Below, piece by piece: positions 2,074 through 58,192 of a stretch of DNA of 64,000 nucleotides (within the stretch, counting starts at the first letter, position 1; each line of letters begins with the position of its first letter). Source of the stretch: Streptomyces sp. NBC_01498 (GTDB lineage: Bacteria; Actinomycetota; Actinomycetes; Streptomycetales; Streptomycetaceae). The notes beneath the pieces were generated by a model, which saw only the letters and a program-made list of their open reading frames with translations, had not been told where the DNA came from and searched no databases. The position numbers and the translations under genes were made by a program. The stretch lies in contig NZ_CP109598.1 in the NCBI RefSeq assembly GCF_036327775.1, forward strand, positions 1,736,001 to 1,800,000. The letters are read 5' to 3'.

Positions 2074-2424
2074 TCAGTTGTCGCGCTTCTCCTTGATCTT
2101 CGCGGCCTTGCCGCGCAGCTCACGGAGGTAGTAGAGCTTGGCGCGACGTACGTCACCACGGCTCACGAGCTCGATCTTCTCGAAGATCGGGCTGTGGACG
2201 GGGAAGGTGCGCTCGACGCCGACGGAGAAGGAGACCTTGCGGACCGTGAAGGTCTCGCGGACGCCCGAGCCCTGCCGGCGGATGACGACACCCTTGAACT
2301 GCTGGATACGGGAGCGGTTGCCCTCGATGACACGCACGTGGACGTTCACGGTGTCGCCGGGACGGAAGGGGGGGAGGTCGCTGCGGAGCGACGACGCGTC
2401 GACGGTGTCGAGCAGGTGGGCCAT
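2074..2424 (-). CDS. rplS: 50S ribosomal protein L19
   Basis: L19 lies at the 30S-50S interface of the ribosome. The 116-residue product ([10 protein letters not shown]...) matches the family from end to end, including [19 protein letters not shown] and the basic C-terminal [12 protein letters not shown]. The start is ATG 2424, preceded by GAGGAAGC about eight bases upstream; a longer frame to 2451 adds nine residues not normal for L19. It follows trmD by 134 bp and precedes the sip array, the standard actinobacterial order. Confidence 0.97.
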
Positions 2425-2558
2425 GATGGTCTGCTTCCTCGCTGATGCCACAGGTCATCAACGGAATCTCGTGAGGAATGTTCGGAGTGCCGTTCGCGTC
2501 GGGTGGGCGTCGTTCCCCCTGTGGCAGGGGCGCGCACCGGACGTACGGCAGTGGCTCA

Positions 2559-3395
2559 TCATTCCACGGTGTCGGGCCTGCGCCAAAATCGGCCACCGGG
2601 CTCGGGGGCCCAGCCCATGATGGAGAGCGTCTCGCGGTCCTTCTTGTCGAAGGCGGCGGGGTCACAACGCTCGATCATGTCGGGCCTGTTGAGCGCCGTA
2701 CGGCGAAACGCCTCGTCCCGCCGCCAGCGGGCGATCCGGCCGTGGTGACCGCTGAGCAGAATGTCCGGGATCGATCGCCCACGCCACTCCGGGGGCTTCG
2801 TGTAGACGGGGCCCTCCAGCAGATCGGCCATCGCCCCGGGGGCGAACGAATCGTCGCGATGGGACTCGGCGTTGCCCAGGACGCCGGGCAGCAGCCGGGC
2901 GACTGCCTCCATGACGACCAGGACCGCCGCCTCGCCGCCGGCCAGGACGTAGTCGCCGATGGAGACCTCGTACACCGGTATCCGCGTCGCGTACTCGTCC
3001 ACGACGCGGCGGTCGATTCCCTCGTACCGGGCCGGCGCGAAGATCAGCCAGGGCAGTTCGGACAGCTCGACGGCGAGTTCCTGGGTGAAGGGACGGCCGC
3101 TGGGCGTGGGAACCACCAGGACGGGGCGGTGCGCGCCCGCCTCGTAACCGTCCGCGATCGTCTGGTCGAGCGCGTCGCCCCAGGGGCCGGTCTTCATGAC
3201 CATGCCGGGGCCGCCGCCGTACGGGGTGTCGTCGACCGTGTTGTGCCGGTCGTACGTCCAGGCGCGGAGGTCGTGCACGCCCACGTCGAGGGTGCCACGG
3301 GCGCGGGCCTTGCCGACGAGGGAGACGTTCAGCGGGTCGAGGTACTCCGGGAAGATCGTGATCACGTCGGCGCGGAACATGGCGGCGCGCGTCAT
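2559..3395 (-). CDS. trmD: tRNA (guanine37-N1)-methyltransferase
   Basis: SPOUT-family enzyme that methylates G37 of tRNAs using SAM, preventing +1 frameshifting. The 278 residues match TrmD: N-terminal [16 protein letters not shown], the substrate loop [15 protein letters not shown], and the knot segment [27 protein letters not shown] that holds SAM. The first ATG at 3395 overlaps the rimM stop as ATGA, so the two are translationally coupled; a second ATG five codons in (MFRADVI) is an alternative start. Part of the rpsP-rimM-trmD-rplS operon. Confidence 0.97.
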
Positions 3396-4060
3396 GACGC
3401 CGCGCCCCTGCCCGCACCGTCGGGGCCCCCGGCACCGTCGCCACCCCCGTCAACGCCCCGGTCGTCGGCGGCGTCGCCCTCGGCCGGAGCGGCGCCGTCA
3501 CCGGTCTGTGGTGCGCCGTCGTCGTCGGGGACGGCGACAGCGAAGTCGTTGTCGATGAGACCGGGGGGCGGATCGATCACGGCCTTCTGCTCCACCAGAT
3601 CGATCTCGGTCACGATCTCCTCGACGAAGGGGATCATGACCTCGGTGCCGTCCGGCCGCTCCACGATGAACAGGTCCTGCGACGGGAGATGGGTGATCTC
3701 GGTGATCCGGCCGACCTCCGTGCCGTCCGGCAGGACGACGTCCAGGTCCATGAGCTGGTGGTCGTAGTACTCGTCCGGATCCTCCGGCAGTTCCTCCGGA
3801 TCCACCTCGGCGATGAGCAGGGTGTTGCGCAGTGCCTCGGCACCCGTACGGTCGCCGACCCCGGCGAAACGCAGCAGCAGCCTGCCGCTGTGGACCCGCC
3901 CGGTCTCGATCGTCAGGGGGCCGGCGGAGGCCGGTTCGGTGGCGAGTACGGCCCCGGGGCCGAGCCGCAGCTCGGGCTCGTCCGTACGTACCTCGACGGT
4001 GACCTCGCCCTTGATGCCGTGGGCACGGCCGATCCGCGCGACTACCAACTGCACTTGCAC
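3392..4060 (-). CDS. rimM: Ribosome maturation factor RimM
   Basis: Assists 16S rRNA processing and assembly of the 30S head, binding S19. It has the N-terminal RimM domain ([25 protein letters not shown]) and a C-terminal PRC-barrel (about 95-165, with [13 protein letters not shown] and the LIPFV-like MIPFVEEIV). At 222 residues it is longer than the usual 170-180: residues from about 170 form an Asp/Gly/Ala-rich tail of low complexity, common in Streptomyces RimM. Stop codon and trmD start overlap by 4 bp. A 294-bp spacer with a long perfect hairpin separates it from the upstream KH gene. Confidence 0.95.
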
Positions 4061-4297
4061 ACGCCCCTGTTCTCGAACCTGCTGTAACTACTGCGGTGGC
4101 TTCCGCGACTGCTGGGTGGGACTCCTGCCGCTCCGGGGCCGCTCGGCCCCGGAGCCGTTCCGGTGCCCTCCCCGGCGTCGTACGCGTTCCCGGCGCGAAC
4201 GGCGGGCGCCGGGCGGCGGGGCGGCGCGTGCCACGGGGCGGGGCGGGTCGGCAGGACAGCTCCGGTGCCGCGACGTACCGGAGCCACGCCCCGCAGA

Positions 4298-4341
4298 CGG
4301 CAGAGGCCGGGAAGGGCCGAGGCCCTTCCCGGCCTCTGCCG
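4298..4341 (-). terminator. Long perfect hairpin after the KH gene
   Basis: A 20-bp perfect inverted repeat (arms 4299-4318 and 4321-4340, plus a C-G pair outside) begins 14 bp after the KH-protein stop codon on the minus strand. The arm read on the plus strand starts GGCAGAGGCCGGGAAG. There is no clear T-tract. It could act as an attenuator or processing site between rpsP-KH and rimM-trmD-rplS rather than a full stop, since rimM lacks an obvious strong promoter of its own. Confidence 0.7.
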
Positions 4342-4354
4342 GTTCACCAGTCTG

Positions 4355-4594
4355 TCAGCGGACCTGATCCACGTCGACGAGGTCGACCCGGATGCCACGG
4401 CCGCCGATCGCGCCCACGACGGTGCGCAGGGCGCGCGCGGTACGGCCGTTGCGGCCGATCACCTTACCGAGGTCGTCGGGGTGCACCCGTACCTCGAGCA
4501 CCCGGCCACGGCGCAGGGTGCGCGAGGCGACCTGCACCTCGTCCGGGTTGTCGACGATGCCCTTCACGAGGTGCTCGAGAGCCTCCTCGAGCAT
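4355..4594 (-). CDS. KH-domain RNA-binding protein (KhpA type)
   Basis: A 79-residue single KH domain protein encoded 2 bp after rpsP. The GxxG signature is in DLGKVIGRNGRTARALRTVV (about 42-61), followed by the strand VDLVDVD at the C-terminus. KhpA-type proteins bind RNA, often with a partner (KhpB/Jag), and their genes usually lie beside rpsP as here. The start MLEEALEHLVKGIVDNPDEV matches the family. Function beyond RNA binding is inferred from the family. Confidence 0.93.
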   Translation of the reverse strand: MLEEALEHLVKGIVDNPDEVQVASRTLRRGRVLEVRVHPDDLGKVIGRNGRTARALRTVVGAIGGRGIRVDLVDVDQVR

Positions 4595-4596
4595 GC

Positions 4597-5037
4597 TCAG
4601 GCCTCGGTCGGCTCAGCGGCGGGCGCCGAAGCGTCGGCCTCGTCCGCCTTCTTGTCGGCCTTCTTCGCCTTCGGGGTGATGGCGTCGCCCTTGGGCTCGT
4701 CACCGTCCTTGGCGAGGGACTCGAAGAGGGCACGCTTGTCGGCCTTCGGCTCCGGCTGGAGCAGCGGCGCCGGCGCGGGCAGGCCCTTGTGCGCCTGCCA
4801 GTCGCCCGTGAGCTTGAGGATCGCGAGGACGGGCTCGGTCGGCTGGGCGCCGACGGAGAGCCAGTAACGCGCGCGGTCCGAGTCGACCTCGATACGCGAC
4901 GGGTTCTGCACCGGGTGGTACAGGCCGATCTCCTCGATGGCCCGGCCGTCACGGCGGGTGCGGGAGTCGGCGACGATGATGCGGTAGTGAGGCGAACGGA
5001 TCTTGCCCAGACGCTTCAGCTTGATCTTGACTGCCAC
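4597..5037 (-). CDS. rpsP: 30S ribosomal protein S16
   Basis: S16 is an early 30S assembly protein. The core (1-80: [35 protein letters not shown]) is standard. The 146-residue product has a long Lys/Ala/Glu tail (about 95-146) typical of actinobacteria. I place the start at GTG 5037, with AGGAGAG nine bases upstream; longer in-frame extensions up to 5184 run into promoter DNA. First gene of the operon rpsP-KH-rimM-trmD-rplS-sip. Confidence 0.95.
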
Positions 5038-5338
5038 GGAAGTGGTCTCTCCTGGATCTTGGCGTGGTTGGGCACAGCGACATGCCGCGTGGGGTTGCGG
5101 TACTCGCGTGCCCGATGGACGCGTCAGCCGGAGGAGAGAGGGGTCCTGTGCGGCTGTCGAGTACAGCTGGCCATTGTGCCACACGCGTCGGGCGCGCCGT
5201 GCCCCGCCCGACGGGGCCGCCGATCTCCGTGAACCGGGACGGGGCAGCGCCGGGCGGGGCGGACGCGACGGCCTTCGGCGCGACCAGACTGCCCGGCACT
5301 GCCCCGACCACTCGACCCGCCCCGCCTGCCCGGCTCAC
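5038..5338. other. Gene-free spacer upstream of rpsP
   Basis: 301 bp between rpsP and the preceding minus-strand gene. It must hold the promoter of the ribosomal operon and the end of the SprT-like gene's transcript. On the minus strand a CACAAT (complement of 5173-5178) could be a -10 element, but I see no convincing -35. No open frame with plausible protein content. Confidence 0.4.
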
Positions 5339-5932
5339 TCAGCTCGCAGCGGCGACCACTTCCGGGATACGGAAGGGCTTGCCGCAGCCGCCGCAGACGA
5401 TGGGCGCCTGCGCGAGGACCGACGGCACGACGCGTACGTTACGACCGCAGTCGCAGACCGCCTTGACGCGCACCCCGCCACCCGACGAGCCGTGCCGCGC
5501 GGCGGGGCCGCGGAAGCTGCGCTCGGTGTCGGACGTCGTCGCGACCGTGTGCGCCGCGAGGGCGCGCTGGAGCCGCTCGATGGTGGGGCGGTAGCGCCGT
5601 CTCGCCTCGGGGTTGAGCGAAACAAGCGAGAAGCCACTGCTGGGATGCGGCTCCTCGGAATGATCCAGGCCCAACTCCTCGGCGATCGCGAGGAATCGGC
5701 GGTTGTGGTAGCGCCCGGCCCGGGAGGTGTCGCGGACACCCCGGGCGGCGGCGATGCCATGGACTGCCTCGTGAAGCAGTCGCTCGAAGGAGAGCTCGGC
5801 GCCGCAGGCGGACGACGACTCTCCGATCAGGGACTCTGGCGCGGCAAGATCGGGCAGCTCGGTGTGGTGCCGCTGAATCTCGGCCCACGCCTGCGCCAGT
5901 TCTGCGGCGAGGACAGGTGGTGTCGTGCTCAC
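5339..5932 (-). CDS. SprT-like zinc metallopeptidase with C-terminal zinc ribbon
   Basis: A 197-residue protein of unassigned function. Residues 54-58 read HEAVH, a HEXXH zincin motif, in the helix RLLHEAVHGIAAARGVRD; a GRYHNRRF segment follows at about 73-80 and may place a further metal ligand. The C-terminus holds CxC...CxxC (Cys160, 162, 180, 183), a zinc ribbon like that of SprT and Spartan-type peptidases, which act on DNA-protein crosslinks. Substrate is unknown; the SprT label is inference from motif order and size. The start is GTG 5932 with no strong ribosome site. It lies alone between the rpsP operon and a long divergent spacer. Confidence 0.72.
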   Translation of the reverse strand: MSTTPPVLAAELAQAWAEIQRHHTELPDLAAPESLIGESSSACGAELSFERLLHEAVHGIAAARGVRDTSRAGRYHNRRFLAIAEELGLDHSEEPHPSSGFSLVSLNPEARRRYRPTIERLQRALAAHTVATTSDTERSFRGPAARHGSSGGGVRVKAVCDCGRNVRVVPSVLAQAPIVCGGCGKPFRIPEVVAAAS

Positions 5933-6773
5933 GTCGTGAACAACGAGCCGGGACCCTCCCGGGTTCCATTCCGGGGCATCTCAAATATTTTGCACGTACC
6001 CGTCAGTTGCCATTGATGCGTCCTGACGAGGGCGGGTGCGTCGATGTGCGGAGAAGTTTCTCTTCTCGTCACAAGGCGGTACGTAGTACGGGGTACGCCT
6101 GGACGCGTAGGCCGGATACGTACACCGGATCGGGGCCACGTCCCGGCCGCCGCCGGCGCGGGTGGTGACAGGGTGGCGTCGCTCGGGCCGCCGTACAGGA
6201 CTCGCGGGCGCCGCACGGGGCGGGACACCGGCACGGGGCGGTGACGAGGCGGCCATGGGGGCAGAACCGCACGAACGACACTAACGGGCGCGCCGCCGAT
6301 CCCCGGCATCGGGGTCCGCTCGGGGCAGACGGCACGGATTCGGCGGATAGCGGGGCGGTCGGGGCCGGGAGCGGGGCGGTCGAAGGCAAGGGCGGGGCAG
6401 TCACGCCCCGGCGGCGTCACCCCTTCGGCCCCCTCACCACCAACGCCCCCGAGCGCACGGTCGTCGGCCCCGTGGACCGCCCCATCCTGCCTGTGCCGGC
6501 TCCGCGCCCGCGCACGATGACGGCTCACGGGGCCCGGCACGGGGCGCGGCCAGGGGCGTTTCGACGGAGGCTCGGAGCGTGGGCCGACCATGTCCGGCGA
6601 GAGACGATTTCCGTGCGCCGGGGCGCACAACCGGAGCAGGCAAGGATTGCCCGCGAACCACTGGACGCGGGCACGGATGGGGAGTTCCCTGGCATACGGG
6701 GAACGAAGGTGCGCACGTACACGGGGGCTGTCAATCAGGGCACGGGGACTCTCGCCGGATTGGGGCGCTATCC
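5933..6773. other. Long divergent intergenic region
   Basis: 841 bp separating the SprT-like gene (minus) from the methyltransferase (plus). An AT-rich patch around 5980-6015 (ATATTTTG) could carry the minus-strand promoter. From 6060 to 6130 GTAC words recur (GGTACGTAGTACGGGGTACG). From 6340 to 6410 there are imperfect repeats of a GGGGCGGTC word. Open frames here have Arg/Gly/Pro/Thr-rich translations with no domain and no ribosome site, so I call no gene. Confidence 0.55.
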
Positions 6774-7679
6774 ATGACTCGTACGCTCGTCCAGCAGCAC
6801 CAGGTGAACGCGACCGCGACCGAGCCTCCTACGGAGGCGGGCGGGCGCGCCCGTGACTGGGCCGAGATCCAGGAACGGATGCTGGTACCGCTCTACGAAG
6901 CGGTGTACGAGCGTCTTGAGGTGGGCCCCGGCACCCGGCTGCTGGGCCTCGGCTGCGGCTCCGGGCTCGCCCTGCTGATCGCCACCGCCCGGGGCGCCGA
7001 GGTCACCGGCGTGGACGCCGACCGGGAACGCGTCGCCCTGGCCCGTGAGCGGCTCGTCCACGACGGACGCGTCGCGGACCACACGGCACCGCACGCCGTG
7101 CCGCCGTCGGGGGTGCGCGGCGACGGGGCAGGAGCACGGGCGCGGGTACTGACCGGCGGCGCGACAGCCGTCCTGGAGGCGGAGCGCCCCGCCTACGACG
7201 TGATCACGGCGTTCCAGCCCATCGGTGTGGCCGCCGGCGACGCGGACGGTCTCGGACCCACGCTGGCCGAGGCGGCGTCCGTGGCGGACCGGGGAACCCC
7301 CGTCGTGCTGGCGGGCTGGGGGCCGCCGGAACGGTGCGCGACGTCCAACGTGCTGCGGGTCGCCGGGCGGCTGACGGAACGGCTGCGCAAGGGGGGTGGC
7401 TACCGTCCGCCGCTCAGGGACGATCTGGAGGACGTGGCGGCGCGGGCAGGGCTGAAGCCGGACGGTTCGGGGCGGGTGTCGTGCCCGTTCGGGTACGCGG
7501 GGATGGAGAGCGCGGTGCGCGGGCTGCTGTCGACCGGGGCGTTCGACGCCGCGGTACGGGCGACGGACCAGTCGCAGGTGGAGAAGGAGATAACGGAGGC
7601 GCTCCACCCGCATGTCCGGGGAGACGGCACCGTATGGATGCCCAACGTCTTCCGTTACCTGATCGCGCGCACGCCCTGA
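6774..7679 (+). CDS. Class I SAM-dependent methyltransferase
   Basis: A 301-residue protein with the Rossmann SAM motif I LLGLGCGSGLALLIA (about 53-67) followed by an acidic strand end, VTGVDADRE, that would bind the SAM ribose. The C-terminal half (VLAGWGPPERC...LRVAGRLTERL) resembles small-molecule or ubiquinone-type methyltransferases of Streptomyces. Substrate cannot be read. ATG 6774 starts MTRTLVQQHQ; upstream in-frame codons look non-coding. It stands alone on the plus strand, 274 bp before the yhf-like operon. Confidence 0.85.
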   Translation: MTRTLVQQHQVNATATEPPTEAGGRARDWAEIQERMLVPLYEAVYERLEVGPGTRLLGLGCGSGLALLIATARGAEVTGVDADRERVALARERLVHDGRVADHTAPHAVPPSGVRGDGAGARARVLTGGATAVLEAERPAYDVITAFQPIGVAAGDADGLGPTLAEAASVADRGTPVVLAGWGPPERCATSNVLRVAGRLTERLRKGGGYRPPLRDDLEDVAARAGLKPDGSGRVSCPFGYAGMESAVRGLLSTGAFDAAVRATDQSQVEKEITEALHPHVRGDGTVWMPNVFRYLIARTP

Positions 7680-7690
7680 CGGACGGGCCC

Positions 7691-7775
7691 GCCTCATAAG
7701 CCGTGGCGCCTCGTACGCCGCGGCGCCTCATAAGCCGTGGCGCCTCGTACGCCGTGACGCCTCGCACGCCGGGGG
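7691..7775. repeat. Five tandem 17-bp repeats
   Basis: Units begin at 7691, 7708, 7725, 7742 and 7759. Units 1 and 3 are identical (GCCTCATAAGCCGTGGC), units 2 and 4 are nearly so (GCCTCGTACGCCG...), and unit 5 is decayed, giving a higher-order 34-bp period. They lie between the methyltransferase stop and yhfZ and are non-coding. Confidence 0.9.
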
Positions 7776-7923
7776 ACGGAGGCCGCAGCGTCGCGGGGCG
7801 GGGGGCGCGGGGTGGGTGGGGTCGGCCACCTGGCCCGGTCGGCGGCCAGGCGCGGGGCGGGAGAAGGCCGCCCTTCGGCCGGTCCTCTCAGTCGGTCGTC
7901 CCTGGCCGGTCGACCTTGGCAGC

Positions 7924-7944
7924 ATCCAGAATCCTGATTACTGT
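7924..7944 (+). promoter_or_regulatory. Putative operator/promoter box, copy 1 (before yhfZ)
   Basis: AT-rich 21-bp element ending 8 bp before the yhfZ GTG. It starts ATCCAGAATCCTG and ends TTACTGT. It matches the element at 9092-9112 at 18 of 21 positions and contains an imperfect dyad CAG-AAT...ATT-CTG. Its position over the ribosome-site region suggests autorepression by the product of yhfZ; it could also include a -10 element. Inferred from repetition and placement only. Confidence 0.6.
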
Positions 7945-7952
7945 CCCTGTCC

Positions 7953-8891
7953 GTGACCGGCATCGACGAACGCCTACTGAGCCGCAACGGCCTCGCCGCC
8001 CGACAACTCGCCGTTCTCCTGCTCAATCACGAGCCGGCCACCCGCCTGCCCCGTGTCCGTGACTTCGCCGAGGAGCTGGGAGTCGGCAACGGCACCGTCC
8101 AGGCCGCCCTCCAACTCCTCGAAACGGCGGGCGCGATCGGTACGACCGCACGCGGCCATCTCGGCACCTTCCTCGTCCGCTCCGACCGTTCGGTCCTCTG
8201 GCGGTTCTCCGGGCTCGGCACTCTCCTGGCGGCGATGCCGCTGCCCTACTCGCACCGGTACGAGGGACTGGCGACCGGTCTGCGCGCGGCGTTCGAGCGG
8301 GCCGGAGCGCCTTTCGCGATCACGTTCATGCGCGGCGCCGGAGCCCGGACCACCGCGCTGATCGAGGGCAAGGTCGACCTGGTGGTCCTCTCGCGGTTCG
8401 CCGCCGACCGGCTGATCGCGGAGCATCCCGTGGAACTCATCGCGGACCTCGGTCCCGCGACGTACGTGGGGGCCCACGGGCTACTGCTGCGCCGCGGGGC
8501 GACGCGGGAAACGGTCGGCCTGCGCGTCGCGGTCGACCATGCCTCGGAGGACCAGCGCGCCCTCGTGGAGCGTGTCTTCGCGGGGCGTTCCGACATCAGG
8601 TGGGTCGAGGCGTCGTACATGCAACTGCGCGACCTGTTCGCGCACGACCGGGTCGACGCCACCCTGTGGAACCTCGACGAGGTCCAGGACCGCCTCGGCC
8701 CCGGCGTGGATGTGCTGCCCCTGGGCGAGGAAATGACCCGCGACCTGTCACTGCGCAACTCCAGCGCCGCGATCATCGGCAGGACCGAGGGGGCGAAGGC
8801 GCTCGGCGCCGTACGAGACTGCCTCGACCTGTCGGTCATCACCACCTGTCAGAACGAGGTGTTGCGCGGTGAGCGCGCCCCGTCGTACTGA
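7953..8891 (+). CDS. yhfZ: YhfZ-like transcriptional regulator with solute-binding-like domain
   Basis: 312 residues. The N-terminal 70 form a winged helix: RLPRVRDFAEELGVGNGTVQAALQLLETAGAIGTTARGHLGTFLV has the GntR-like order of helix, recognition helix and wing. The remainder (about 80-300) resembles a periplasmic-binding-protein fold (GLATGLRAAFERAGAPFAITFMRGA, VDLVVLSRFAAD, VEASYMQLRDLFAHDRVDATLWNLDE), the architecture of E. coli YhfZ. Likely senses a small ligand and controls the downstream operon. The start is GTG 7953, just after the 21-bp motif. First gene of an eight-gene plus-strand cluster; a 250-bp spacer with repeats follows. Confidence 0.82.
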   Translation: MTGIDERLLSRNGLAARQLAVLLLNHEPATRLPRVRDFAEELGVGNGTVQAALQLLETAGAIGTTARGHLGTFLVRSDRSVLWRFSGLGTLLAAMPLPYSHRYEGLATGLRAAFERAGAPFAITFMRGAGARTTALIEGKVDLVVLSRFAADRLIAEHPVELIADLGPATYVGAHGLLLRRGATRETVGLRVAVDHASEDQRALVERVFAGRSDIRWVEASYMQLRDLFAHDRVDATLWNLDEVQDRLGPGVDVLPLGEEMTRDLSLRNSSAAIIGRTEGAKALGAVRDCLDLSVITTCQNEVLRGERAPSY

Positions 8892-8929
8892 CCCCGGCGC
8901 TCCTCCTCGTCGGCGCCGCAGGGGGCGGG

Positions 8930-9018
8930 CTCACGGTGTACGGGGTGGACTCACGCGGTACGAGGCGGCCTCGCGAAGTACGGGCGGGCTCACGCGGTAC
9001 GGGGCCGGCTCACACCGG
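8930..9018. repeat. Tandem 20-bp repeats (about 4.5 copies)
   Basis: Units start at 8930, 8950, 8970, 8989 and 9009 (the last partial). Typical unit: CTCACGCGGTACGAGGCGGC. Non-coding, between yhfZ and yhfY. Unrelated in sequence to the 17-bp array before yhfZ, but both contain a GTAC core. Confidence 0.85.
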
Positions 9019-9091
9019 CGTGCCCGCGGCTTCGTCCCGGGCCGGAGCGTCGCGCCGCCCGGGGAAAGAAGAAGTCGAGCCTCTGCTCAAA

Positions 9092-9112
9092 ATCCAAAAT
9101 ACTGGTTACTGT
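9092..9112 (+). promoter_or_regulatory. Putative operator/promoter box, copy 2 (before yhfY)
   Basis: Second copy of the AT-rich element seen at 7924-7944, here ATCCAAAATACTGGTTACTG plus one T, 29 bp before the yhfY ATG. The two copies differ at only three positions although surrounding DNA is unrelated. Most simply a YhfZ operator governing the structural genes from yhfY onward. Confidence 0.6.
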
Positions 9113-9141
9113 TGTGTTGCTCCGACGAAGGGACCACCAGC

Positions 9142-9543
9142 ATGGACGACCGGCTCGCCCTCCGTATCCGCCTGTTCCGCGAGGGCGGTCAGGTCCGGCC
9201 CGAGGTCGTCACGTTCGTGACGAACGAACTCGACGCCCTGGCCGCCGAGGGCCGCACCGTCACCGAGGAGACCGCCGGCACGCTCACCAGTCACCTCATG
9301 ATGGCCCTCACCAGACTGCTCGACGGAGAACCGATCACGGAGTTCACCACCGACGCCGAGATCGCCGCCGAACTCGCGGGGCATCCGGAGGCGGTGACAC
9401 GGGCGAGCGCCGTCTCCCGACGCGCGGCATCGGAGCTCGGCACGCCCCTCCCCGACTCGGAGATCAACTTCCTGGGACTGCACCTCGCCCTGCTCGACCG
9501 GAACTCGCCGTCCCGAACTCCCCCATCACGTCGCGCGACTTGA
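9142..9543 (+). CDS. yhfY: YhfY-like PRD-domain protein
   Basis: 133 residues, all helical in character, resembling the PTS regulation domain (PRD): FREGGQVRPEVVTFVTNELDAL, then LTSHLMMALTRLLDGE with His in the first conserved position, and ending DSEINFLGLHLALLDRN, the typical PRD 'E-x-x-x-x-x-x-H' helix. There is no DNA-binding domain, as in E. coli YhfY. The ATG at 9142 follows GAAGGGACCACCAGC. The last ~13 residues (SPSRTPPSRRAT) are a low-complexity tail. Role in the pathway unknown; a regulatory partner for YhfZ is a guess. Confidence 0.75.
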   Translation: MDDRLALRIRLFREGGQVRPEVVTFVTNELDALAAEGRTVTEETAGTLTSHLMMALTRLLDGEPITEFTTDAEIAAELAGHPEAVTRASAVSRRAASELGTPLPDSEINFLGLHLALLDRNSPSRTPPSRRAT

Positions 9544-9556
9544 GAAGGAAACAGCC

Positions 9557-9913
9557 ATGACGAAGATCCTCACCGGCGGCGTCGGCAAGACCGAGGTCAC
9601 GGCGACCGTCAAAGCCCTCGGCCTGGACGGCATCGAGATCACGACCTCCAACGACATGGACGCCGCGATGAAACTTCGCGGCGGTCAGGCCGACTACTAC
9701 CTCGGCACCTGCCACACAGGTGCCGGAGCCTCGCTCGGGGTGCTCCTCGCGCTGCTCGGCAAGCCCGCCTGTCACACCTTCGGCCGCTCCGTCCCCACCG
9801 AGGACGAGGTGAACGCCCTGCTGGCGGAGGGCAAGCGGGTCTTCGGCTTCGCCGTCGACCAGATCGACGTGATCGCCCCGCTCATGGCCCGCGCCGTCGC
9901 CGCACGCGGCTGA
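9557..9913 (+). CDS. yhfU: YhfU-like DUF2620 protein
   Basis: 118 residues matching the DUF2620 family: KILTGGVGKTEVTATVKALG at the N-terminus, then GGQADYYLGTCHTGAGASLGVLLALLGKPACHTFGR, a Gly-rich segment with conserved Cys and His that could bind a ligand or metal. Start ATG 9557 with AAGGAAACAGCC upstream, 13 bp after yhfY. Always found with yhfT in this gene set as far as I recall; the pair may form a transport or sensing unit. Biochemical function unknown. Confidence 0.82.
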   Translation: MTKILTGGVGKTEVTATVKALGLDGIEITTSNDMDAAMKLRGGQADYYLGTCHTGAGASLGVLLALLGKPACHTFGRSVPTEDEVNALLAEGKRVFGFAVDQIDVIAPLMARAVAARG

Positions 9914-10001
9914 CGGCCCCGTAGCGAGCCCGTAGCGGCTCGGCAGTACTCGTACGACCCCGCGCGGTGCCAGGCCCCGCCGGGCATGGAGGAGTGATTC
10001 C

Positions 10002-11507
10002 GTGAGCAGCGTCCTCGCAGCGAGTTCGACACACCTCGACCTCTCGCCGGCCCAGCAACTGACCGTGGTGGCGCTGTGTGCGCTGACCGCGTTCATCTCT
10101 CATATGGCGCTGGCCGTCTTCAACGACGGTGTACGCCCCTTCATGCTGGACCTCGTCCAGGGGCGGTCCACGCGCAACGCCACCACCGCCGTGTCCTTCG
10201 GGCTCTCCGCGGGCTTCATCTTCGGGCTCGGCGCCCCGATGGCGCTGTCGACCGGCGTCCTCAACCCGTGGCTGGTCTTCCTGCCCACCGACGTCCTGGG
10301 CATCCTGTCGCCCAGGAAATGGATCGCTCCGCTGCTGGGCGGCGCGTGGGGCGCGATCGTGGTGTTCGGCCTCAACGGGGCCAACGGCCTCGCCCACGAC
10401 CTGCCCGTCGACTTCCTGACGGCGCTCCAGCAGATGTCGACGCCGATCCTCTTCCTGTTCACGCTCTTTCCGGTGCTCGCGATCACCAAGCAGTTCGGGC
10501 GGCGACGGGGCGCGATAGCGGCGGTGGTCGAACTGGTCATCGTCGTGACGACGATGAAGGTCTGGCCCGACATCTTTCCCGGCTCCCTCGCGATGGCCGT
10601 CGGAGTGCTGACACTCATCGGCTTCGCGGTCAACAAGGACATGACGCAGCGGAAGGCGGACCGGGCCGAGGCGGCAAAGTCGTCGGCCTCAGCCTCGGCC
10701 GGGACGACCACGACCGCGCCCACGACCACGACCAGGACCACGACCACGACCACGGCTGAGACGGTCGGCGAGCCGGCGAAGGCCACAGCAACTGCGACAG
10801 GCGGCTCCGCCGAGCCGGGCAAGGACCACGGGGCGGCCGACGACAGGGCGGCCGACGACGTGGCGGACCCGATGGCCTCGCTGTTCGGCGCGAGCGCACT
10901 GCGGCTGCGCCGCCATCTGCCGCTGTTCATGCTGCTCGGGGCCGGCGTCTGTGTGCTGGCTCAGTCACATGTGTTCGCCGGCGGCGAGGCGACGAGCTTC
11001 CTGATCGCCAAGGGGGACTACGCGGAAGCCGCCCAGGTGGACTTCTACCGGGCGTTCGGCTTCGTACCGCTGATCGCGACGACGGCGCTCGCCTCCGGCG
11101 CGTACGGCATCGCCGGGTTCACCTTCGTGTACCCCCTCGGCTATCTCATGCCGAACCCGTTCCTCGCCGCCGTCGTGGGCGCCGTGGTCTTCGCCGTCGA
11201 GGTGCTCGCTCTCTCCGCCATCGGCAGGCTCCTCGGGAAACTGCCCAGCGTGCGCGACTCCTCCGAATATCTGCGCAGTGCGATCGGCGACGCCCTGGGG
11301 CTCGCGATCCTCTTCGGTTCGCTGATGGCCGCCAACGTCATGGGCGGGGGCCTCGGCATCCTCGTCGTGGGCGGGCTCTACCTGCTGAACGAGTCGATGG
11401 GCCGCCCCGTGGTGCGCATGGCGGCGGCGCCCGCAGCGGTCATCGTCGGAGGAGTACTCCTGAACATCCTCCACTGGCTGGACCTGTTCACCCCGATCAA
11501 GGGATAG
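10002..11507 (+). CDS. yhfT: YhfT-like multipass membrane protein
   Basis: 501 residues with roughly ten hydrophobic segments (for example 20-40, 64-86, 108-126, 147-162, 172-186, 196-212, 308-324, then four more to the C-terminus). Matches YhfT by NDGVRPFMLDLVQGRSTR and FGLGAPMALSTGVLNPWLVFLPTD. Likely the permease of the operon. Odd feature: residues 218-292 between the two membrane halves are low complexity, with a Thr run built from ACGACC hexanucleotides (about 10698-10757) and then Asp/Ala-rich sequence, longer than I expect in enterobacterial YhfT. GTG start at 10002 after GGAGTGATTCC. Confidence 0.82.
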   Translation: MSSVLAASSTHLDLSPAQQLTVVALCALTAFISHMALAVFNDGVRPFMLDLVQGRSTRNATTAVSFGLSAGFIFGLGAPMALSTGVLNPWLVFLPTDVLGILSPRKWIAPLLGGAWGAIVVFGLNGANGLAHDLPVDFLTALQQMSTPILFLFTLFPVLAITKQFGRRRGAIAAVVELVIVVTTMKVWPDIFPGSLAMAVGVLTLIGFAVNKDMTQRKADRAEAAKSSASASAGTTTTAPTTTTRTTTTTTAETVGEPAKATATATGGSAEPGKDHGAADDRAADDVADPMASLFGASALRLRRHLPLFMLLGAGVCVLAQSHVFAGGEATSFLIAKGDYAEAAQVDFYRAFGFVPLIATTALASGAYGIAGFTFVYPLGYLMPNPFLAAVVGAVVFAVEVLALSAIGRLLGKLPSVRDSSEYLRSAIGDALGLAILFGSLMAANVMGGGLGILVVGGLYLLNESMGRPVVRMAAAPAAVIVGGVLLNILHWLDLFTPIKG

Positions 11508-11559
11508 GGCGGCTCCGAGCCCCCTTGGCCGCCCACCCCCAACGGAAGGACCACGCACC

Positions 11560-12627
11560 ATGGAGCAGCGTCCCGACCCGGGCCTCGGCTCCGCCCCGTA
11601 CCTCCGCCACGGCACAGATCTCGGCATCGGACGGGGTCCTGGCCGTGGCCGTGGTCCTGGTGACGGTGCGCGCCCGCCGGGTGAACCGCGCCATCTGCGC
11701 ACCGTCACCGGCCCGTTGGCCGTCTCGGCCGTCCGGGGCCCCGTGCTCGCCCACGAGCATCTGGTCCTCGATCTCGACCGCGCCGGGGACGGGGCGGCGG
11801 TTCTCGACGCGGAGCGGCACGGCCCCGCTGTCGTCGCGGAACTGGCGGCCCTGCGCGAGGAGTACGGCCTCGGCCTGGTCGTCGAGCTGACCTGCCGCGG
11901 CATGGGACGCCGTCCGCACGCCCTGGCCCGGATCTCCGCCGCGTCGGGGGTACCGGTGGTGGCCGCCACCGGCTGGTACTACGAGCCGTTCCACCCGCCG
12001 GAGCTCGACGGGGCGGGCGTCGAGGAACTGACCGCGACCCTCGTAGCGGAGGTTGAGGACGGGTTCGGCGGCACGGGTGTCCGGCCCGGCGTTCTGGGCG
12101 AGATCGGCAGCCACGGCGACGCACCGACCGCGCCCGAGACCCGTGTCCTGTTGGCGTCGGCACACGCCGCCGTGGCCACGGGCCTGTCGGTCGCCACCCA
12201 CGCGCAGCTCGGCCGGGGCGGTCTCGCCCAGTTGGCACTGCTCACCGGCGCCGGACTGCCCCCGCACCGGATCTCGCTGGGACACCAGGACCTGCTCGAC
12301 GCCCCGTCCGTGCACCATGAGCTGGCGGCGAGCGGCGCGTACGTCGCCTTCGACACCGTCGGCAAGGAGAGCTACCAGAGCGACACCACGCGGCTGCGCC
12401 TCCTGCTGGCACTGCTGGAGGCGGGCCACGCCGACCGGGTCCTGCTCAGCTGCGACATCTCCCGGCACGCTTATCTCCGGTCGGCGGGCGGCCACGGCTA
12501 CGGGCATCTCTTCCGGTCCTTTCTGCCCCGGGTGCGCGCGGCCGGGGTGGACGAAGACCTGATCGACCTGATGACACGGCGCAATCCGCTGCGGTTCCTG
12601 ACCGGTGCGGACCCGAAGGAGAACTGA
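11560..12627 (+). CDS. php: Phosphotriesterase-homology (Php) metal-dependent hydrolase
   Basis: Amidohydrolase-superfamily TIM barrel of 355 residues. Metal ligands visible: His65 and His67 in VLAHEHL, Glu181 in GVLGEIG (the Php-type bridging Glu in place of carboxylated Lys), His214 in VATHAQ, His242 in SLGHQD, Asp299 in LLSCDIS. So the binuclear metal centre looks intact. The first ~48 residues are a Gly/Pro/Arg-rich extension absent from the ~290-residue E. coli protein; the true start could be internal, though ATG 11560 has GGAAGGA upstream. One base separates its stop from yhfS. Substrate unknown; lactone or phosphoester hydrolysis is plausible for the family. Confidence 0.85.
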   Translation: MEQRPDPGLGSAPYLRHGTDLGIGRGPGRGRGPGDGARPPGEPRHLRTVTGPLAVSAVRGPVLAHEHLVLDLDRAGDGAAVLDAERHGPAVVAELAALREEYGLGLVVELTCRGMGRRPHALARISAASGVPVVAATGWYYEPFHPPELDGAGVEELTATLVAEVEDGFGGTGVRPGVLGEIGSHGDAPTAPETRVLLASAHAAVATGLSVATHAQLGRGGLAQLALLTGAGLPPHRISLGHQDLLDAPSVHHELAASGAYVAFDTVGKESYQSDTTRLRLLLALLEAGHADRVLLSCDISRHAYLRSAGGHGYGHLFRSFLPRVRAAGVDEDLIDLMTRRNPLRFLTGADPKEN

Positions 12628-12628
12628 G

Positions 12629-13732
12629 ATGGCCGTACGACTGCCACGGACCTTCCCCCTGGCGACGATCGCGCTGGACGACGCGGTCCGGAAGCAGTTC
12701 CGGCTGCTGGAGTGCGTTGCCGCGCGGTTCGAGGGTCAGCAGCTGTTCGAGGCGGACGCGGGCGTGGTGCCGGAGCTGGGCCGGCCCCGTACCACTGCCC
12801 GGGTCGAGGCGGTGCTGGCGGACTTCTTCGGTGCCGAGGACGCCGCGCTGGTGCAGGGCGCGGGCACCGGGGCCATCCGCGCCGCGCTCCAGGGCGCCGT
12901 GGGCCCCGGCGACCCGCTGCTGATCCACCGGGCGCCGGTCTACCGCACGACCGCGGTGACGCTGCGCGGGCTCGGGGTCCGCACCGTCGAGGCGGACTTC
13001 AACGACGGCGGGGCGCTCCGTCGGGCCCTGGAGTCGGGTGGGTTCCGGTGGGCGTACGTCCAGCACAGCAGGCAGCGGCTCGCGGACTCGTACGACGCGG
13101 GGGAGGTCGTCGCGGTCTGCCGGGCGGCCGGGGTGCGCACGATCGTCGACGACAACTACGCGGTCATGCGCGCCCCGTCGTGCGGAGTTGAGCTGGGCGC
13201 CGACGCCTCGTGCTTCTCCCTCTTCAAACTGCACGGCCCCGAGGGCGTCGGCGCCGTCGTCGGGACGGCCGACATCGTCGAGAGGGTACGGGCCGACAAC
13301 TACTCGGGCGGTGGCCAGGTGCAGGGCAACCAGGCCCTCGACGCCCTGCGCGCGCTCACCCACGTCCCCGTCATGTGGGCCGTCCAGTCGCAGGTCGGCG
13401 CCGAGATCGCCGAGCGGCTCGCCGCCGGGGAGGTGCCCGGCGTGGCGGAGGTCCGGATCGCCAACGCGCAGGACCGCTGCCTGCTCGTACTGCTGGAGCG
13501 CCCCGTCGCGGGCGAACTGCCCGCCGTCGCCGCCCGGTACGGCGCCGCGCCGTACCCCGTGGGCTCCAACTCCCGCTACGAGATCGCCCCGCTCTTCTAC
13601 CGCATGTCCGGCTCGTCCATCGACGACGCTCCTGAACTCGCCGACCGGACCGTGCGGATCAACCCGATGCGGGCCGGCTCCGACCTGGTGATCGAGATCC
13701 TGCGGCGTTCGCTGCACGACCTGAAGGACTGA
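12629..13732 (+). CDS. yhfS: YhfS-like fold-type I PLP-dependent enzyme
   Basis: 367 residues with the aminotransferase/lyase fold: LVQGAGTGAIRAALQGAV (cofactor phosphate site, about 75-91), VDDNYA with Asp174/175 contacting the pyridine nitrogen, and FSLFKLHGPEG with Schiff-base Lys200. This is the cystathionine-lyase/aminotransferase-like arrangement of YhfS. ATG 12629 follows the php stop by one base with AAGGAGAACTG upstream, so translation is coupled; the yhfX start follows by 3 bp. Reaction unknown; pairing with a fold-III PLP enzyme next door suggests successive steps on one amino compound. Confidence 0.85.
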   Translation: MAVRLPRTFPLATIALDDAVRKQFRLLECVAARFEGQQLFEADAGVVPELGRPRTTARVEAVLADFFGAEDAALVQGAGTGAIRAALQGAVGPGDPLLIHRAPVYRTTAVTLRGLGVRTVEADFNDGGALRRALESGGFRWAYVQHSRQRLADSYDAGEVVAVCRAAGVRTIVDDNYAVMRAPSCGVELGADASCFSLFKLHGPEGVGAVVGTADIVERVRADNYSGGGQVQGNQALDALRALTHVPVMWAVQSQVGAEIAERLAAGEVPGVAEVRIANAQDRCLLVLLERPVAGELPAVAARYGAAPYPVGSNSRYEIAPLFYRMSGSSIDDAPELADRTVRINPMRAGSDLVIEILRRSLHDLKD

Positions 13733-13735
13733 CCC

Positions 13736-14896
13736 GTGTTCCTGGACGCCGTCCTGGCCCGCAATCCCGAACTTGTCGACGTGGCGGTGTCGCTGCACCG
13801 CTCCGGCGCCGTTCCTCCCGACACGTATGTGATCGACGCCGACTCCGTGGAGGCCAACGCCGCGCTGCTGGCCGGGGAGGCCGAACGGCTCGGCCTCAGC
13901 CTCTGGTTCGTGGTCAAGCAGATCGGCCGCAACCCGGCCCTGGTCCGGGCGATCGCGCGGCACATCCCCCGGTTCGCGGCGATCGATCCGTACGAGGCGC
14001 TGCTGCTGCACGATGCGGGGGCCCGCGCAGGCAACGTCGGCCACCTCGTACAGATCCCGCCCCGTCAACTGCCCGCCGTGCTCGGCCTGCGGCCCGAGAC
14101 GGTGACCGTGTTCGACCTGGCCAACGCGCGCGCCGTCTCCGACGCCGCCCGGCGCCTCGGATTCGTCCAGGACGTACTCGTGAGGCTGGAAGGCACCGAC
14201 AAGGTCTATCCGGGGCAGGAGGGGGGTGTGCCGCTCGCCGGGCTCACCGACTTCGCGACGGCGGCGGAGGCACTGCCCGGCATCAGGATCGCGGGCGTCA
14301 CCGCGTTCCCCTGTGTCCTGTGCGATCCGCTGACCGGCGCCCCGGCCCCCACCCAGAACTTCCAACTCGCGATCACGTCGCGCGAGTTGCTGGCCGCGCG
14401 GGGCCACGAGGGTCTGAAGCTCAGCGCGCCGAGCGCCACCTGCGTGGCCACCCTCCCCCTGCTGGCCGAGCTCGGGGCCACGCACGGTGAACCGGGTCAC
14501 GCCCTGACCGGGACGACCCCCCTGCACGCGATCGACCGCCGGCAGCCCGAGCGGCCCGCGTACGTGTACGTCAGCGAGGTCGCCCACACCCTGGCGGACG
14601 GGCGGCCGGCGCTCCACGGCGGCGGTTTCTACCCGCGTGCCCGCATCCGTGACGCCCTGCTGCCGCGTGCCGGACTGCGACTGCCCGTACTGGACGCGCC
14701 GGCGGAGAACATCGACTACTACCGGCTGCTCCAACGCCCCCGCCACGCCGCGGATGTTGAGGTCGGAGACACCGCCGTCCTCGCCTTCCGCACCCAGATC
14801 TTCGTCACCCGCTCGACCGTCGCGGTCGTCGCCGGGCTCTCCACCGGGAAGCCGAGGCTGACCGGTCTCTACGACGCCCAGGGCCGGGTCCGGTGA
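13736..14896 (+). CDS. yhfX: YhfX-like alanine-racemase-fold (fold III) PLP enzyme
   Basis: 386 residues. The N-terminal TIM barrel has the PLP lysine at Lys61 in LWFVVKQIGRNPALVRAI; the C-terminal beta domain carries HGGGFYPRARIRD and a conserved PAENIDYYRLLQRP. Related to D-amino-acid racemases/decarboxylases but belongs with YhfX. GTG 13736, 3 bp after yhfS. The stop overlaps a possible GTGA start for yhfW. Specific substrate unknown. Confidence 0.85.
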   Translation: MFLDAVLARNPELVDVAVSLHRSGAVPPDTYVIDADSVEANAALLAGEAERLGLSLWFVVKQIGRNPALVRAIARHIPRFAAIDPYEALLLHDAGARAGNVGHLVQIPPRQLPAVLGLRPETVTVFDLANARAVSDAARRLGFVQDVLVRLEGTDKVYPGQEGGVPLAGLTDFATAAEALPGIRIAGVTAFPCVLCDPLTGAPAPTQNFQLAITSRELLAARGHEGLKLSAPSATCVATLPLLAELGATHGEPGHALTGTTPLHAIDRRQPERPAYVYVSEVAHTLADGRPALHGGGFYPRARIRDALLPRAGLRLPVLDAPAENIDYYRLLQRPRHAADVEVGDTAVLAFRTQIFVTRSTVAVVAGLSTGKPRLTGLYDAQGRVR

Positions 14897-14937
14897 GGCC
14901 CCGCACCGCACCCGCACCCGCACCCCGGAGCAGGAGC

Positions 14938-16230
14938 GTGAACCGCAGCATGAGCACCCTGGTGATCGTGGTCATCGACGGGTTCGGTGTCGGCGCGATG
15001 CCGGACGCCGGGGCGCTGCGCCCCGGCGATCTCAGCGCCGACACCTGCGGCCACGTTCTCGACCACTGTCGTGCGGCACTGGGCCGGCCGCTCCGGCTGC
15101 CCGCTCTCGGCGCGCTGGGCCTCGGCCTGGTCCGTCCGCATCCGGACCTCGCGCGCCGGACCGACCGCCCCGTCGCCGTGGGCCGGGCGGCGCTGGGTTA
15201 TCCGGGGGCGGACACGTTCGCCGGGCATCAGACCATGATGGGGGCGGACTTCAGCCGGGTCACGGTGGCACCGCTCGCCGGGCACCTCGACGAGGTGAGC
15301 GGCGCGCTCAAGGCCGCGGGGCACCTGGTCGAACCCTTGGGGGAACGGCCGCTTCTGCTCGTGGACGGGGCCGTACTCGTCCACGACAACCTGGAGGCCG
15401 ATCCCGGCATCAACTGGAACGCCTCGGGGCGGCTGAGCGACGTGTCCTTCGACCGCATCCTGTCCGTCGCCCGCACGGTGCGGGCCGTGGCGCCGGTCGC
15501 CCGCGTGATCGCCGTCGGCGGCCACGCGGACCGGACGCTCACCGCGTACGTACGGGACGGTGACGGCGGCACCGTCGGGCTGGACACCCCGGCCAGCGGC
15601 TTCTACCGCAACGGGGGCCTCCAGGTGCGGCACTTGGGCGCCTCCCTCGACCACACCCGGCAACTCCCCGACGTCGCCGCCCGCGCGGGTCTACCGGTCA
15701 CCCTCGTCGGCAAGGCGGCGGACATCCTGGCGTGTGACGCCGCCGTACGGCGCCCCGCCGTCGCGACGGCGGAGGTACTGGAGCACACCCTGTCGGCGGT
15801 GCGGAGCGCCGTACAAGCGGGACGGGGCGCGGTACGGGGCGGGCGGGGCGGCCTCGTGGTCGCCAATGTCCAGGAGAGCGATCTCGCGGGCCACCAGCAG
15901 GACACGGAGCGCTTCGGGAGCGTCCTGGAGCAGGTCGACGTCGGGCTCGCCGAGCTGACGGGGCTGCTCACGGGGCCGGGCGACCGCCTGATCGTCACGG
16001 CCGACCACGGCAACGACCCGACGGTCGGTCACGCCCATCACACACGTGAGTACGTCCCGGTCCTGATGCACCGCCCGGACGCCTCGGGAATCGAACGTCT
16101 CCCGGACGCCGCCACGTTGGCGGACGTCGGGGCGACAGCCGCGGCGGCCCTCGGCCTGGATCCGGCCGAGCTCACGACGGGTGAGACGCTGCTCAGCGGG
16201 TCCTCCGGCCGTTCGGCTGGGCCGCTGTAG
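14938..16230 (+). CDS. yhfW: YhfW-like phosphopentomutase-family enzyme
   Basis: Alkaline-phosphatase superfamily, phosphopentomutase-like, about 430 residues. Metal and phosphate residues visible: Asp14 in VVIDGFGVG, candidate nucleophile Thr93 in YPGADTFAGHQ, and the C-terminal TADHGNDPTVGHAHHTREYVP with the second metal site. Three starts are possible: GTG 14893 (overlapping the yhfX stop), GTG 14938 (GGAG seven bases upstream, chosen) and ATG 14950. A Gly/Arg stretch (AVQAGRGAVRGGRGG, near 15820-15860) coincides with a GTACGGGGC word inside the coding frame. Last gene of the yhf-like operon, convergent with ffh. Confidence 0.83.
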   Translation: MNRSMSTLVIVVIDGFGVGAMPDAGALRPGDLSADTCGHVLDHCRAALGRPLRLPALGALGLGLVRPHPDLARRTDRPVAVGRAALGYPGADTFAGHQTMMGADFSRVTVAPLAGHLDEVSGALKAAGHLVEPLGERPLLLVDGAVLVHDNLEADPGINWNASGRLSDVSFDRILSVARTVRAVAPVARVIAVGGHADRTLTAYVRDGDGGTVGLDTPASGFYRNGGLQVRHLGASLDHTRQLPDVAARAGLPVTLVGKAADILACDAAVRRPAVATAEVLEHTLSAVRSAVQAGRGAVRGGRGGLVVANVQESDLAGHQQDTERFGSVLEQVDVGLAELTGLLTGPGDRLIVTADHGNDPTVGHAHHTREYVPVLMHRPDASGIERLPDAATLADVGATAAAALGLDPAELTTGETLLSGSSGRSAGPL

Positions 16231-57698: not shown

Positions 57699-57704
57699 GT
57701 CACG

Positions 57705-57777
57705 TACCCCCGACCGGATTCGAACCGGCGCTACCGCCTTGAGAGGGCGGCGTGCTAGGCCGCTACACAACGGGGGC
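57705..57777 (-). tRNA. tRNA-Glu (CTC)
   Basis: 73 nt. Acceptor GCCCCCG pairs with CGGGGGT (one G-T), TTCGAAT T-loop, anticodon loop CTCTCAA giving CTC. No encoded CCA. Identical to the two other tRNA-Glu copies here. Confidence 0.95.
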
Positions 57778-57796
57778 CAGCGGGTGGAGCATTGAG

Positions 57797-57868
57797 CTGG
57801 GCTACCAGGACTCGAACCTAGAACAACGGAACCAGAAACCGTCGTGTTGCCAATTACACCATAGCCCA
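57797..57868 (-). tRNA. tRNA-Gln (CTG), copy 1
   Basis: 72 nt. Acceptor TGGGCTA/TAGCCCA, anticodon loop TTCTGGT giving CTG, TTCGAGT T-loop. Differs from the other tRNA-Gln at three positions. Confidence 0.95.
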
Positions 57869-57894
57869 AGGGTGTTCGGACCTGCGTTTCTGCG

Positions 57895-57967
57895 TACCCC
57901 CGACCGGATTCGAACCGGCGCTACCGCCTTGAGAGGGCGGCGTGCTAGGCCGCTACACAACGGGGGC
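57895..57967 (-). tRNA. tRNA-Glu (CTC)
   Basis: 73 nt, identical to the copy at 57705-57777. Middle of the five-gene array. Confidence 0.95.
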
Positions 57968-58028
57968 CCTAGCGATCCTGCATCGAGATGTCCGGGTGCG
58001 ACCCGGAGAAATCGGAGAGAAGGATCTG

Positions 58029-58101
58029 TACCCCCGACCGGATTCGAACCGGCGCTACCGCCTTGAGAGGGCGGCGTGCTAGGCCGCTACACAACGGGGG
58101 C
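58029..58101 (-). tRNA. tRNA-Glu (CTC)
   Basis: 73 nt, third identical tRNA-Glu copy. Confidence 0.95.
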
Positions 58102-58120
58102 GTTGCAGAAGAACTCTGCG

Positions 58121-58192
58121 CTGGGCTACCAGGACTCGAACCTAGACTAACGGAACCAGAAACCGTCGTGCTGCCAATTACACCATAGCCCA
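58121..58192 (-). tRNA. tRNA-Gln (CTG), copy 2
   Basis: 72 nt. Same fold and anticodon as copy 1. First gene of the array in transcription order (Gln-Glu-Glu-Gln-Glu). Confidence 0.95.

Follow-up and report, generated by a model that had tools for sequence, protein, structure and literature searches.

A complete, apparently self-regulated yhf gene set at the ffh locus of Streptomyces sp. NBC_01498

The window analyzed in this study is a 64,000 nt stretch of Streptomyces sp. NBC_01498 (contig NZ_CP109598.1, positions 1,736,001 to 1,800,000). On its plus strand, at 7953-16230, lie eight adjacent genes, yhfZ, yhfY, yhfU, yhfT, php, yhfS, yhfX, and yhfW (abbreviated Z-Y-U-T-P-S-X-W). Together they form an intact counterpart of the full eight-gene yhf set of Escherichia coli, and this copy appears to regulate itself. 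The set is a putative metabolic pathway, and the annotation of E. coli K-12 still lists its genes as putative or uncharacterized. Genes of Bacillus subtilis, among others, share the yhf names. The window set is a true member of this known, functionally unsolved kind and does not represent a new kind of system; what is new here is an operator-like element, a predicted ribose-5-phosphate isomerase B (RpiB)-like fold for YhfU, a common gene order, and a pattern of gene loss. We consider it somewhat probable that the set is functional, was inherited with this chromosome stretch and lost by most of the genus, and serves the inducible uptake and breakdown or salvage of an amino-acid/sugar-phosphate-like compound.

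Family assignment of the eight genes

The original prediction, made from the DNA letters, matched the eight genes one to one to yhfZ, Y, U, T, php, S, X, and W. Pfam and NCBIfam models bore this out, calling YhfZ, a PRD-type protein, DUF2620 (YhfU), YhfT, a PTE-family hydrolase, YhfS, YhfX, and the PRK12383 mutase YhfW; the proteins matched yhf families and not unrelated ones. Scores were softer for two of the eight, YhfY and Php. Sequence matches in the PDB supported the calls for YhfZ, Php, YhfS, and YhfX, and the same search gave no match for the window YhfU or YhfY. Identity between the window and E. coli proteins ranged from 26 to 49%. The NCBI names of many of these Streptomyces proteins already read YhfT family or DUF2620. 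E. coli K-12 likewise carries all eight families, one copy each, on the same strand, but its set adjoins frl and trpS instead of ffh.

All active-site residues named beforehand were present: His65, His67, Glu181, His214, His242, and Asp299 of Php, Lys200 of YhfS, Lys61 of YhfX, and Asp14 and Thr93 of YhfW. They were kept in at least 97% of the aligned Php (n = 80), YhfS (n = 78), YhfX (n = 78), and YhfW (n = 69) proteins, which were drawn from the 80 loci kept, out of 95, by the collection search plus the window and E. coli, and also in the E. coli proteins. Compared with two near relatives, all eight window genes had dN/dS values of 0.11-0.25 (ffh, 0.09), which backs the earlier view that the pathway looks alive.

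The yhfZ gene (7953-8891, plus strand, as are all eight) encodes a predicted local regulator with a GntR-type helix-turn-helix and a YhfZ_C domain; it scored 336 bits against NF041241 (cut-off 260) and matched PDB 2ozz with an E value of 1.5e-33. The small PRD-type protein YhfY (9142-9543) reached 22.0 bits against Pfam PRD (cut-off 23), and its His51 was invariant in seven of seven aligned proteins from four phyla. YhfU (DUF2620; 9557-9913) has invariant C52, T54, G55, and G57. YhfT (10002-11507) is a membrane protein and predicted permease. Php (11560-12627; the start may be 11695) is a PTE-family metallohydrolase that passed the Pfam PTE cut-off; it resembles the PTE-family lactonases in family and in all six metal-site residues but falls below the cut-offs of the PHP, OPH, and phospho-furanose lactonase models. 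YhfS (12629-13732) and YhfX (13736-14896) are pyridoxal phosphate (PLP) enzymes of fold types I and III, with Lys200 and Lys61, respectively. The phosphopentomutase-like YhfW (14938-16230; start at 14938 or 14950), in which Asp14 and Thr93 follow the numbering of the original prediction, keeps the DTxxGH, DxxGH, and DHG stretches. It shares with DeoB the Asp, the Thr, and the residues of these stretches to which metal-site roles are generally ascribed, whereas its scores against the two DeoB phosphopentomutase equivalogs were below cut-off (130 versus 256 bits and 109 versus 341 bits) and its score against the separate PRK12383 equivalog was above it (436 versus 254 bits).

Several repeats were seen in this region. 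The window YhfT contains a Thr-rich, repeat-coded insert (10644-10856, residues about 215-285) with an array of 6-bp units at 10704-10754; the insert is absent from 14 other aligned YhfT proteins and divides the Pfam match in two. Short tandem repeats with 17/34-bp and 20/39-bp units occupy the gaps before yhfZ (7690-7771) and before yhfY (8922-9013).

An operator-like element beside yhfZ and yhfY

Two copies of a 22-bp element, with the consensus TATCCAGAATCCTGGTTACTGT and an imperfect palindrome around CCAGnATnCTGG, were found in the set. The first (CATCCAGAATCCTGATTACTGT; 7923-7944, plus strand, 38.5 bits) ends 8 nt before the yhfZ start, and the second (AATCCAAAATACTGGTTACTGT; 9091-9112, plus strand, 41.5 bits) lies 30-51 nt before yhfY. 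In the whole 7.27 Mb genome, exactly these two matches occurred at up to 3 mismatches; the reversed pattern gave none there and one site in 392 genomes. Shuffled sequences led us to expect 0.07 matches where two were seen, and with both controls a chance origin was rejected. The element also precedes Z in three Actinomadura loci and in a Nocardioidaceae metagenome-assembled genome (MAG), and Thermosporothrix has a weaker version of it. Because the sites of Actinomadura, the MAG, and Thermosporothrix were among those used to train the scoring matrix, the pattern searches serve as the independent tests.

Among the 392 Streptomyces genomes, the pattern matched 74 times. Sixty-seven matches lay within 6 kb of yhfT, all beside yhf, and no wider YhfZ regulon was found in the yhfT-positive genomes. 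The remaining seven came from six yhfT-negative genomes, two of them in a relic that keeps Z (G028), with one copy before Z and one between Z and W. No yhf gene was found within 19 kb of the sites in G193 and G370 or within 3 kb of those in G033 and G337; G267 was left out. A match was present in 40 of the 45 yhfT-positive genomes. Of the other five, four have no Z anywhere in the genome and one (G189) carries an element that has diverged; among the Z-less sets, only that of G293, which retains a fragment of Z, has a match. The element occurs twice in the window's genome, tracks yhfT across the 392 genomes, and is missing from four of five Z-less sets, which makes YhfZ a probable dedicated regulator of its own locus. 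Most simply, the element would be the YhfZ operator, with YhfZ controlling yhf alone.

The locus had been described as a complete operon. The eight-gene completeness holds, but the window set is probably not one operon because yhfZ and yhfY carry separate operator-like elements and sit 250 bp apart. In the 25 kb around the E. coli yhf genes, no Streptomyces element was found within 3 mismatches; a different inverted repeat precedes yhfX there and a looser one precedes yhfZ. According to a table in PMC4448311, php and yhfS, T, U, W, and X form a separate operon in E. coli, and an operon start at yhfX would be consistent with this.

Distribution, gene order, and inheritance

YhfT scored over its family cut-off in 45 of 392 Streptomyces genomes and in two of 396 genomes sampled across the phylum, both of them Streptomyces, in agreement with the patchy presence proposed earlier. 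We fetched the loci of the 44 other YhfT matches and of one sub-threshold match, the latter without any yhf gene; together with the window, 45 sets were obtained. All eight genes are collinear in 39 of them, and a further set is complete but has W inverted. Z and W are both missing from four sets, one of which retains a 44-residue Z fragment, and one set consists only of Y-U-T-P. Whole-genome searches of the five genomes with incomplete sets returned no Z or W, only sub-threshold matches, and a separate check agreed for W in seven genomes that have none at the locus.

The predicted core position between a methyltransferase gene and ffh was confirmed for the window. The ffh gene lies within about 9 kb of yhf in 22 of the 45 sets, the window included; in two more the methyltransferase gene is present and the contig edge is reached before ffh. 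The other 21 have neither gene nearby, four of them being cut short by a contig end, and some of the sets away from ffh share other neighbours among themselves. We also inspected 30 ffh sites, which were the best matches to the window ffh from 101 genomes and were ranked by similarity, not drawn at random. There, yhfW adjoins ffh in three (the window included), one holds a relic, and in the other 26 the nearest recognized gene encodes a methyltransferase or an FtsH-like protein; three of those 26 genomes (G005, G051, and G065) have a yhf set elsewhere. A presence of the eight genes at this place in nearly all Streptomyces was not borne out; most of those examined have none there. Housekeeping neighbours recur at the ffh sites (ProS-like and FtsH-like, named by eye from sequence). 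The relic (L220; G028:C617, 2621-4795) consists of an intact Z and a truncated W between the methyltransferase gene and ffh. Its W lacks the first 53 residues (window numbering from 14893), queries of the site detected none of the six middle genes, and S and T were absent from the whole G028 genome.

The K-12 order, Z-Y-X-W-php-U-T-S, is as given in the original prediction. The window set departs from it; because order varies among sets, we did not take gene order as defining a yhf set. Where the genes are present, Z-Y-U-T-P-S-X-W was found in the Streptomyces, Actinomadura, Nocardioidaceae MAG, and Thermosporothrix (Chloroflexota) loci, with two departures: a set cut by a contig end with W on the opposite strand (L053/L132), and the Streptomyces varsoviensis set (L045), where a second YhfT-like gene (6735-8060; 53% identity to the YhfT of the same genome) lies between Z and Y. 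A Cetobacterium somerae plasmid (L104) has the window order but, unlike the window, carries an amidase-like gene (13294-14325; 21.3 bits, cut-off 27) between T and php, a possible hint at an amide substrate. A Vibrio halioticoli plasmid (L105) reads Z-Y-P-U-T-X-W; its Y was placed by position and length, as it matched neither Pfam PRD nor the tblastn query. Upstream, at 2118-6193, are IIB-IIC-IIA genes of a lactose/cellobiose phosphotransferase system (PTS), with genes for a DUF7916 protein and a porin between them and yhf. Among the sets examined, the window order is the more frequent, and it also occurs beyond this locus. Since S, Z, and W are each absent from some sets, none of them is part of every set. 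A search for SFCGS (PF14272), an analogue, gave one sub-threshold match in 198 genomes.

A FastTree phylogeny built from T, P, S, X, and Z (support not shown) grouped the Streptomyces sets in one clade; ffh-linked sets occurred throughout most of this clade, and the remaining sets were nested at several points. Distances in yhf correlated with those in ffh across the 22 ffh-linked sets (r = 0.63, against a maximum of 0.34 in 2000 permutations), and the nearest neighbour was the same by both measures for 19 of the 22. The tree implies at least two losses of W. We conclude that the yhf set was early at ffh, was inherited, sometimes moved, and was often lost; inheritance with repeated loss is what the agreement with ffh distances suggests. 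A recent horizontal arrival of the set at ffh as a genomic island would account for the patchy distribution and for the 21 sets with neither methyltransferase nor ffh gene nearby. This explanation is weakened by the distance agreement at the ffh site and by the relic, which shows loss at that very site; the G+C content also resembles that of the neighbours, and ffh-linked members run through most of the single Streptomyces clade. We regard such an arrival as very improbable. Elsewhere in the window, the minus strand at 57704-58192 carries five consecutive tRNA genes (Glu, Gln, Glu, Glu, and Gln by rising coordinate).

Proposed function and its alternatives

The chain of uptake, PLP chemistry, hydrolysis, and phosphate transfer put forward in the original prediction is an inference from protein families, and we extend it on the same footing. 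The C-terminal domain of YhfZ would sense a small molecule, either the substrate or an intermediate, and YhfZ would control its own gene and a yhfYUTPSXW unit by binding the two operators. YhfT would import the substrate, and YhfY may report PTS or carbon status through His51. The substrate would be an amino-acid-like part joined to a sugar-phosphate or lactone part. Judged by their families, YhfX (racemase or decarboxylase type) and YhfS (lyase type) would handle the amino-acid-like part, Php would open a lactone or phosphoester, the RpiB-like YhfU would handle the sugar phosphate, and YhfW would shift the position of the phosphate. The end products would be an amino-acid fragment and a pentose or hexose phosphate, the latter feeding into central metabolism. 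Some lineages keep U-T-P-S-X without W, which may therefore act late or be replaceable.

YhfU is predicted to have the RpiB fold, its structural model agreeing with the RpiB/LacAB fold. This claim rests on the model because the sequence match to RpiB was weak (probability 9%, E value 0.0037) and the PDB sequence search had no match; the 118-residue window protein also gave no match to Pfam LacAB_rpiB. In RpiB, His99 is catalytic, and Asp9/His10 and a C-terminal Arg pair also have roles. In the weak alignment, Asp9/His10 fall in a gap and the Arg pair lies beyond the end.

Several results weigh against a functional pathway of the proposed kind. The window YhfU has no His after position 73, which leaves His99 without a counterpart, and the Pfam RpiB score of E. 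coli YhfU was 13.6 bits, below the cut-off of 24.7; because of these two points, an RpiB-like fold need not mean an isomerase. The window Php scored 206 bits against the E. coli PHP equivalog NF007373, under the cut-off of 486, and the predicted YhfT model was too poor for a fold search. No yhfS was found anywhere on the Vibrio plasmid. In two pairs of genomes without W, dN/dS was 0.20-0.48; weaker constraint on these shorter sets is only suggested and is not clear, because ffh values were also higher in those pairs (0.18 and 0.25). A table in PMC10652928 shows that most of yhf, along with frl, has been lost from an E. coli strain with a reduced genome, implying that the set is dispensable in the laboratory and not essential in E. 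coli. The portions consulted of the literature on yhf, including PMC7513527, PMC4448311, PMC2965389, PMC12147183, PMC7937436, PMC11728337, and PMC10652928, give no function.

Alternatively, the set could be biosynthetic, making a small unusual amino acid or amino sugar (e.g., a D-amino acid or lactone metabolite) that YhfT exports or re-imports. In favour of this, Streptomyces are producers, such pathways include enzymes of the racemase, lyase, and mutase types, and the set is patchy like many specialized clusters. However, yhf is present in 5014 of 5426 complete E. coli genomes (at least 80% coverage), a set with the same regulator family sits on the Cetobacterium plasmid, and no single neighbour gene was seen to recur across both kinds of Streptomyces site (neighbours clustered, mostly unannotated). 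A PRD protein and a ligand-sensing regulator would also fit catabolism better. A sensing regulator, a PRD-type protein, and near-universal presence in E. coli led us to rate a catabolic or salvage role above biosynthesis, which appears quite unlikely. It is also conceivable, if unlikely, that YhfT, YhfU, and YhfY form a divergent PTS uptake system in which YhfU is an IIB-like phosphocarrier phosphorylated on its invariant Cys. A bolder version of the catabolic proposal, which we hold only tentatively, is that yhf is an undescribed pathway for an amino-acid/sugar-phosphate conjugate in which YhfU, a trimmed RpiB-type subunit, would work with YhfT as a new kind of PRD-linked permease.

The well-defined predicted operator in Streptomyces makes the yhf question testable, since it offers a ready reporter for inducer screens. 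The gene losses rank the pathway steps, and the predicted RpiB-like fold of YhfU points to a sugar phosphate. Solving yhf would also assign a function to the membrane family YhfT. If the catabolism of such a conjugate is true, Streptomyces would be well suited to solving yhf, because it combines a clean YhfZ switch at two operators with naturally occurring losses of Z, of W, or of the middle genes.

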